A stretch of DNA of 64,000 bases from Syncephalis plumigaleata (lineage: Eukaryota > Zoopagomycota > Zoopagomycetes > Zoopagales > Piptocephalidaceae): assembly GCA_025201365.1 (NCBI GenBank), contig JAIXMF010000001.1:2232001-2296000 (forward strand). The letters are read 5' to 3'. Positions 23,883-24,506 of this stretch are shown here, piece by piece; positions within the stretch are counted from its first letter, which is position 1, and every line of letters starts with the position of its first letter. The notes below the pieces were generated by a model, which saw only the letters and a list, made by a program, of their open reading frames with translations, was not told the origin of the DNA and did no database searches. The position numbers and the translations under genes were made by a program.

Positions 23883-24506
23883 ATGAAATTTTCTGTGGTT
23901 ATCATTGTCGCTTTTGTCATGGCTATGGCCATCATCATGTCAAGTGCCGATGCTACTCCCGTGGCAGCTACTAGCAGTATGTACTAGTATTGTATTATGT
24001 AACTTTTCTATTAATGATATACTCTCGATATTATCATTCGAAAATCACTTGCATTTAGGTTCTTGTAAGTCTAAAACTGAATGCAATAGTTAGTTGCTAA
24101 TAACTTATCGTACATGTATCATATGCGATAATACCATAAATAGGCAGTAAGTTGCTACCATACTAGTAATAGTATCAATGTTAATCGATTCACGTATAAC
24201 TAACTAATACGTTTGCAGCTCGTAAGTATACCTTCTCATAGACATATCCGCTTCGTATTAAATAAACTGAATTGCCCTTTCATTCAACCATTCTAATCGA
24301 TAGGACGTAAGTATAATTATCGAATGACATAGGAACCATGCTAATCATACGATATTTACTTCCTGTTATGAATAATTCCATTAAATAGGACGTAAGTTAT
24401 AGGCAAGAAATGCAAATTATATTCAACTAACGATTCAATAATGATTCCTTAATTGATGATGACAACAACGATGATAATGTCATTTACAGGTTGTTACGAC
24501 GACTAA
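23883..24506 (+). CDS. Micro-exon gene encoding a 42-residue secreted peptide
   Basis: Exon 1 (23883-23976) encodes a signal peptide, 'MKFSVVIIVAFVMAMAIIMS', then 'SADATPVAATS'. Five tiny exons follow, each bounded by a TAG or CAG acceptor and a GTAAGT donor: 24059-24064 (GTTCTT), 24144-24146 (GCA), 24219-24221 (CTC), 24304-24306 (GAC), 24389-24391 (GAC). The final coding part (24490-24506) ends in TAA. Each micro-exon is a multiple of three and sits in the same phase. Joined, they read on from exon 1 as 'SSCTRRRCYDD' and stop, giving a two-Cys basic peptide. Introns are 72-98 nt with CTAAC/CTAAT-like branch sites. The design resembles schistosome micro-exon genes. Function unknown. If micro-exons are skipped, one residue at a time is dropped without losing frame. 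Confidence 0.65.

Follow-up and report, generated by a model that had tools for sequence, protein, structure and literature searches.

How short can the exons of a gene become? The question is raised by a locus at positions 23883-24506 of the window (the whole 64,000-nt stretch of Syncephalis plumigaleata DNA that was analysed). Species of the genus Syncephalis are described as mycoparasites (PMC10386755). A lumazine synthase of the window has its nearest relatives in Syncephalis fuscata (83%) and Thamnocephalis (71%). The initial annotation had read this locus as a micro-exon gene, in which a signal-peptide exon is followed by five in-phase exons of 3-6 nt. Direct reading of the nucleotide sequence confirmed this parse base for base, all of the proposed exon and intron sites and the in-frame stop being present. 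The micro-exon reading itself is strongly supported, mainly by arrays of such exons located elsewhere in the genome.

Structure of the window gene and of its second copy

All features of the window gene are located on the + strand. Exon 1 (23883..23976; 94 nt) ends in phase 1 at a GTATGT donor and encodes the putative signal peptide MKFSVVIIVAFVMAMAIIMSSADATPVAATS and contributes the first base of the codon that follows. It is separated by intron 1 (23977..24058; 82 nt, GTATGT...TTTAG) from micro-exon 2 (24059..24064; GTTCTT, 6 nt). This is followed by four exons of 3 nt each: (i) micro-exon 3 (24144..24146; GCA), (ii) micro-exon 4 (24219..24221; CTC), (iii) micro-exon 5 (24304..24306; GAC) and (iv) micro-exon 6 (24389..24391; GAC), which are preceded by intron 2 (24065..24143; 79 nt), intron 3 (24147..24218; 72 nt), intron 4 (24222..24303; 82 nt) and intron 5 (24307..24388; 82 nt), respectively. 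Intron 6 (24392..24489; 98 nt), with the end TTTACAG, leads to a terminal exon of 17 nt (24490..24506; phase 1), which completes an R codon and adds CYDD and the stop TAA. Each micro-exon is flanked by a YAG acceptor and a GTAAGT donor. The spliced gene reads MKFSVVIIVAFVMAMAIIMSSADATPVAATSSSCTRRRCYDD, followed by the stop, i.e. 42 residues with phase 1 throughout; the tail of the peptide is SSSCTRRRCYDD, and its start, judged by eye, resembles a signal peptide.

The initial annotation had also held that chance would rarely produce such a series, and the counts agree with this. In the window, the pattern YAGNNNGTAAGT was counted 8 times (4 times within the window gene), compared with a mean of 1.00 (sd 0.92, largest 4) in 100 shuffled sequences. 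A finder blind to exon length (exons ≤30 nt) detected a single chain of at least five sites in the window; the reversed window gave none. Among the window sites outside chains, 64 of 165 enclose a multiple of three.

Contig C104 carries a second copy of the window gene with 98% identity; collinearity extends over 10 kb, and this copy is therefore probably the other haplotype. It keeps all exons and splice sites, the five micro-exons and the terminal exon being identical in both copies. The two copies differ at 0 of 20 exon positions, 0 of 60 splice-site positions and 15 of 535 intron positions; since approximately 0.6 exon changes would be expected at the intron rate, this comparison alone is little proof.

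Arrays of micro-exons in the genome

The genome (32.6 Mb in 383 contigs) was searched with the pattern TAGNNNGTAAGT, which yielded 1353+1226 (2579) matches, compared with 412+335 (747) for the reversed pattern, a more than threefold excess. The matches cluster at steps of approximately 83 bases. Our sample comprised the window and 26 regions, of which 25 were picked for clustered TAGNNNGTAAGT matches and one for the second copy of the window gene. Sites were chained by spacing only, with the nearest YAG taken as the acceptor. This revealed 35 micro-exon chains (some of them parts of one gene) in the window and in 25 of the 26 regions, with none in L014; the longest contains 67 exons. The chains hold 882 exons, of which 744 are exactly 3 nt long and 847 are multiples of three.

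When applied to the reversed loci, the same procedure found 188 exons in 24 chains of 5-15 sites; 65 of these exons are multiples of three and 15 are 3 nt long. Block-shuffled loci gave no chains. The chains in reversed loci stem from periodic repeats, and their length modulus is that of chance; thus the exon lengths, and not the number of chains, constitute the evidence. Counts of the pattern with single fixed codons had a mixed outcome: compared with the reversed control, GAT (89 and 10, respectively) and TCT (12 and 0) are in excess and CAT is so to a small degree only (46 and 31), while TAA/TAG gives 39 and 171, a control value that we think is inflated by simple repeats.

Exon 1 and the organization of the main family

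A peptide search with exon 1 revealed at least 150 matches genome-wide (168 candidates, 150 scored; weakest E value 4.1e-4). This number is a lower bound and includes haplotigs and members with long open frames; the arrays behind the matches were checked in the fetched regions only. In all 21 loci with an identified exon 1, including the window, this exon is 94 nt long, ends in phase 1 and has a GTATGT donor. The motif allowed 92-98 nt and GT[AG]TGT, so this constancy is partly imposed, yet all 21 exons have 94 nt. A typical exon 1 encodes MKFSAVIAIAVAVVALTSLVAVEASPVLERR, and in 16 of the 21 loci it ends with RR, which we take to be a Kex2-like processing site.

Exon 1 is followed by (i) phase-1 exons of 3, 6, 9 and 12 nt, (ii) a phase-switch exon, (iii) a long run of 3-nt exons and (iv) a terminal exon, for which NNNTAAGCA is a frequent type. 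In 18 of the 21 loci an exon of 2 or 5 nt with an AAG acceptor changes the phase from 1 to 0, and in 14 it is the sole exon whose length is not a multiple of three. The mature peptide is thus predicted to be almost wholly encoded by micro-exons in most of the members examined.

In eight loci (L007, L008, L014, L017, L018, L026, L028 and L029), an open exon of 94 nt before a GTATGT donor was not detected. All of them except L014 have chains, and the motif therefore misses some genes. L008 and L021 are alleles of one array (96% identity over 8 kb), of which only L021 matches the motif; the first micro-exon of L008 is 2 nt long (TC) where L021 has ATA. In terminal exons, e.g. those of L024 and L021, the stop is directly followed by GCA or GCG and a donor-like GT, which suggests an intron in the 3'-UTR right behind the stop in the main family. 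Some exon-1 matches (e.g. C112:333626 and C340:439257) carry the same signal peptide before long open frames of up to 165 aa, and P0146 (143 aa) likewise has the main-family signal peptide before an uninterrupted frame. Such sequences are possible ancestors or shuffled relatives of the array genes.

Coding capacity of the arrays

None of the 744 exons of 3 nt is a stop codon. When five duplicate loci were dropped, the number of stops among the remaining 613 exons was still 0, compared with 44 expected from intron trinucleotides; an alternative expectation, calculated by hand from the position frequencies of the exons themselves, is approximately 16.

The 21 loci with an identified exon 1 were also analysed with two frame-blind parsers based on simple site scores, the second of which allowed more donor types. 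Over both parsers, the first in-frame stop lies in the last exon in 10 of the 21 loci (7 with the first parser and 9 with the second): L006, L009, L011, L015, L016a, L020, L021, L022 (with the first parser only), L023 and L024. With the second parser, neither frame +1 nor frame +2 has its first stop in the last exon in any of the 21 loci. Frame +1 is stop-free in 18 of the 21 parses, which we put down to the small number of codons ending in TA or TG; the absence of stops within a parse is therefore weaker evidence than the position of the terminal stop.

The other 11 parses are imperfect. In six of them (the window, L005, L010, L012, L013 and L030b) the chain breaks or ends before a stop. The parses of the window gene and of its second copy are incomplete because the last exon carries no donor and is out of the parser's reach. 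Frame slips occur in L016b, L027 and L030a, and the parse of L025 stops one exon early. L019 has a premature in-frame stop in exon 2 (exon CTTAAGGCC) in an otherwise intact array; it is either a pseudogene or a gene with a shifted splice site.

Splicing signals and codon avoidance

The donors of the 882 chain sites are most often GTAAGT (616), the strong U1-type donor of the main family, or GTAAGC (141). The length of the array introns is centred at 80 nt; those of the main family have a common consensus, in which a TACTAAT-type branch site lies approximately 40 nt from the acceptor. Within 498 introns, AG was found at 26 of 15936 sites in the zone -35..-3, compared with 335 of 16359 upstream of -40, while GA shows no such scarcity (770 vs 991 in the corresponding zones). 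The array introns share ancestry, and these AG counts are therefore not independent.

The choice of synonymous codons in the 3-nt exons was compared with that in 13 open stretches of the window, chosen by us as a reference for ordinary exons (2450 codons). Lysine is encoded by AAA:AAG in a ratio of 30:3 in the 3-nt exons and 55:46 in ordinary exons (p=1e-4), and glutamine by CAA:CAG in a ratio of 26:0 and 70:34, respectively (p=3e-4). A CAG exon would be scanned as a site of zero length, and the number of zero-length sites is likewise 0. For glutamic acid, GAA:GAG is 11:18 compared with 55:74 (p=0.68), i.e. GAG is not avoided. AAG and CAG exons would create tandem NAGNAG acceptors and GAG would not. 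The avoidance of AAG and CAG, but not of GAG, points to the spliceosome rather than to a general codon bias. A shift in asparagine codons (AAT:AAC 8:13 vs 78:27 in ordinary exons, p=0.002) is not explained by NAGNAG. Together, the avoidance of NAGNAG and the AG-poor zone, both read from the DNA, point to real splicing.

Divergence and turnover of intron-plus-codon units

We compared 262 pairs of units from different arrays with similar introns on both sides; these pairs are not independent and some units may be misassigned. Below an intron divergence of 0.05 the codons do not outpace the introns (0.026 vs 0.037), and in the further bins the codon and intron values are 0.100 vs 0.073, 0.301 vs 0.128 and 0.519 vs 0.170. 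Of the codon differences caused by a single base, 8 of 57 are synonymous, compared with an expected fraction of 0.24 (one-sided binomial 0.044), which is marginal and assumes phase 0 throughout. In allelic pairs the exon divergence is 0.000, 0.029, 0.024 and 0.060, and the intron divergence 0.028, 0.017, 0.017 and 0.045, respectively; from the allelic comparisons alone, no exon constraint is visible.

Adjacent identical codons are in excess (45, compared with 24.9 after shuffling; sd 4.4, largest of 2000 shuffles 43). The alleles L015 and L023, whose flanks are 95-96% identical, differ by two intron-plus-codon units, and within L023 two introns that lie four units apart are 99% identical and are followed by different codons. 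These three observations favour duplication and turnover of intron-plus-codon units.

Relation of the window gene to the long arrays

The window gene has several features in common with the long arrays: a 94-nt MKFS exon ending in phase 1, a GTATGT donor, 3-nt exons and GTAAGT donors. It is absent among the 150 exon-1 matches listed in the genome-wide peptide search. Its exon 1 ends with ATS and not with RR, it contains no phase-switch exon (none of its micro-exons departs from a multiple of three), and none of its six introns matches the consensus of the array introns (z from -0.3 to 1.4). The window gene is thus tied to the long arrays by architecture, without significant sequence similarity, and we take it as a distant member of their family or a parallel case.

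Predicted peptides and deposited protein models

Among the predicted peptides, CPDQEWNEFWDSDAQNCCHW is an example that spans several micro-exons. In all eight loci whose chains hold at least three cysteine codons, the spacing C..CC..C is found, as in CPDQEWNEFWDSDAQNCCHWGGNDILC of L022; paralogy may explain part of this recurrence. Other arrays encode acidic, proline-rich or glutamine-rich sequences. Cysteine and tryptophan account for 5.7% and 3.9% of the codons in 3-nt exons, compared with 1.3% and 1.2% in ordinary exons. In six proteins searched against Pfam no family scored above the cut-off; below it, the window peptide weakly matched three families (E 0.058-0.13) and P0127 two.

Some of these single-codon exons are also read by deposited protein models, which are partial. 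In the alignment of P0141 with the frame-blind parse of L024, which includes exon 1, 54 of 76 residues are identical; P0141 is devoid of some single residues of the full parse. P0121, from contig C79 (which carries L022), contains QEWNEF and then enters an intron. These models may be ab initio predictions, since they are inconsistent and run into introns. The 50-residue tail of P0123 has no contiguous match in any genomic frame, an empty result that is itself uninformative. P0137, P0138, P0140, P0142 and P0143 (jgi/ena), five short proteins of other origin, look like exon 1 followed by read-through into a relative of intron 1. They are presumably metagenomic, being located on contigs of less than 8 kb. 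Because of this resemblance, the one-codon-exon architecture may exist in other species.

Interpretation and alternative explanations

With a probability of approximately 0.85, we consider the arrays to be genes for prepro-peptides whose hypervariable mature part would be encoded mostly at one residue per exon, the window gene being a short, divergent example of this expanded architecture. This reading draws on what can be seen in the DNA: the regular units and their frame, the lack of stops, the constraints on splice sites, the excess of codon over intron divergence in diverged pairs and the gain or loss of units between alleles.

Exon 1 would supply the prepro-region, with the signal peptide and, in most of the members examined, the dibasic RR (Kex2-like) end. 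The micro-exons would be joined constitutively via intron definition, probably in 5'-to-3' order. Ordered joining is likely because a 3-nt exon can hardly hold the acceptor and donor complexes together, and the direction is likely to be 5' to 3' because every joining step puts a new donor site directly after the codon that it adds. The exonic half of the donor is free to vary as a codon, for which the strength of the intronic half would make up. Diversification would occur by duplication or deletion of intron-plus-codon units together with codon change, and the product would be a secreted peptide, often cysteine-bridged (C..CC..C), used towards the mould host. A host-directed role is the most likely one, judged from the mycoparasitic lifestyle, the apparent secretion and the change between copies.

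That the loci are non-functional minisatellites or decayed genes, i.e. repeats containing splice-like words by accident, has a next to negligible probability: the units are indeed tandem repeats, the reversed loci also yield 24 chains of 5-15 sites and L019 has a premature stop, but chance repeats do not account for exon lengths of which 847 (multiples of three) and 744 (3 nt) of 882 fit a codon, against 65 and 15 of 188 in the reversed loci, nor for the codon-specific constraints and the lack of stops. The initial annotation had offered as an alternative the recursive removal of one long intron. In its classical (ratchet) form the 3 nt would be incidental, and the mRNA would have exon 1 spliced directly to the last exon or would hold no meaningful codons. 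An acceptor and a strong donor lie almost back to back in the arrays, as they do at recursive sites, and the introns of the main family are repeats of one sequence. However, none of the 882 chain sites has zero length (AG|GT), and the trinucleotides behave as codons: they are stop-free and exceed the introns in divergence in diverged pairs, the cysteine patterns recur and 10 of the 21 parses reach their in-frame stop in the last exon. As a non-coding explanation, recursive removal is disfavoured, and we hold it to be very unlikely. Stepwise splicing that leaves one codon behind at each step is, by comparison, a plausible route.

Somewhat less improbable, and still distinctly unlikely, is the spread of mobile, introner-like 80-nt intron copies between nearly every two codons of ordinary peptide genes. 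The 80-nt consensus with its TACTAAT branch site, shared by the array introns of many genes, agrees with such a spread, as do the frames of up to 165 aa that stay open behind some exon-1 matches. Introners are near-identical introns that occur in unrelated genes together with duplications of the target site; the shared consensus described here was observed within the arrays. Random insertion would not produce almost exclusively 3-nt exons in one phase, and it does not predict the excess of adjacent identical codons (45 vs 24.9) or the gain and loss of intron-plus-codon units between alleles; an insertion of this type could be the source of the first intron. Combinatorial splicing, in which symmetric 3-nt exons are skipped in any subset while the frame and the stop are kept, so that each gene gives a population of peptide variants, is allowed by the architecture. 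The single residues missing from P0141 would fit it, though they may be an ab initio artefact. We regard it as unlikely, since the mostly strong donors and the avoidance of NAGNAG acceptors suggest selection for accuracy and the C..CC..C frame implies a defined product.

Returning to the prepro-peptide reading, its elements may be combined, tentatively and at slightly less than even odds, into a residue-level generator of diversity in the arms race of a mycoparasite. The peptide would be spliced residue by residue, by a 5'-to-3' ratchet adding one codon per step, and each unit would be a frameshift-free cassette through which residues could be inserted, deleted, duplicated or swapped, with possible skipping of units.

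Comparison with known micro-exon systems

The micro-exon genes (MEGs) of Schistosoma mansoni are similar in that they are genes of a parasite, in which a signal peptide is followed by tiny exons, mostly multiples of three, with secreted products and a structure that is difficult to annotate automatically (PMC10526429). The source describes 35 genes with 10 to 20 very short exons, mostly of 15 bp, and introns of 0.1-5 kb; exon length is given as 3-81 bp in the abstract and 6-81 bp in the body, so the lower limit of 6 nt cited for schistosomes in the initial annotation is roughly right. The Syncephalis arrays, unlike MEGs, belong to a fungus and have exons mostly of 3 nt, introns of approximately 80 nt, up to 67 exons in a row and at least 150 exon-1 matches. 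The architecture of a micro-exon gene is found both in the window (exons of 6, 3, 3, 3 and 3 nt after a signal-peptide-like exon) and in the genome (847 of 882 multiples of three), while the long introns and mostly 15-bp exons of schistosome MEGs are not. No schistosome protein was present among the 12 and 26 hits of the similarity searches.

The bicycle genes of aphids likewise constitute a large family of putative effectors with many micro-exons in one phase and rapid divergence; they have approximately 17 exons on average, with internal exons starting in phase 2, and a megacycle gene has more than 100 microexons (PMC9168663). Unlike these insect genes, the window gene uses phase 1, and the long arrays phase 1 and then phase 0. 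The exons of bicycle genes are also longer than one codon. Classical recursive splice sites have an acceptor directly before a donor, with no nucleotides left, whereas the Syncephalis arrays keep at each step 3 nt that behave as codons. Isolated 3-nt exons can be spliced, e.g. in human RPS24 and in Drosophila; there too a single codon forms an exon, but it is a lone one in an otherwise normal gene. A functional microexon of a fungus, said to be the first in filamentous fungi, is that of the transcription-factor gene Xlr2 of Trichoderma virens, which is likewise fungal but a single exon of 20 nt (PMC11121469).

A literature search that covered few subscription papers, and these sources in part, returned no account of arrays of single-codon exons, nor of micro-exon arrays in Syncephalis or the Zoopagomycota; S. 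plumigaleata is mentioned in one paper among the results. We rate the arrays as a new, extreme variant of micro-exon genes, placed beside and outside MEGs and bicycle genes because exon size and intron length differ from the former and phase from the latter. A codon-per-exon ratchet, if shown by cDNA, would merit a category of its own. To our knowledge, genes with dozens of 3-nt exons in succession, many of them in one small fungal genome, would if true be the most extreme exon architecture. They would pose the puzzle of how the spliceosome achieves the accurate joining of 40 or more one-codon exons if adjacent complexes hardly fit together, and would provide a compact natural system for the study of intron definition, splice order and fidelity. 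Proteins could then evolve by the gain and loss of DNA units that each encode one residue. Standard annotation would for the most part miss or garble a likely effector repertoire of a mycoparasite, and families of this kind could escape notice elsewhere.

Further classes of arrays

L026 (2373-7111, - strand) is likewise an array gene; its possible signal peptide, MKSIVALCLALSVNIMGINAISD, is a different one, and its introns have a mean z of 1.1 against the main consensus. Because of these two features, the one-codon-exon design may have arisen more than once. The introns of L026 and of the class that includes L007 are near chance in comparison with the array consensus (mean z 0.8-1.9), as are those of the window gene, and the design is therefore not tied to one intron sequence.

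This second, larger class of micro-exon genes (L018, L028, L029 and L007; e.g. L028:1997-7602, + strand) has chains of approximately 50 exons. These include exons of 21 nt that encode LEAANQH-like repeats, and at least 150 matching pieces are present genome-wide. In L017 (- strand), a cysteine-containing part is followed by a proline- and arginine-rich tail encoded by exons of 3 and 6 nt.
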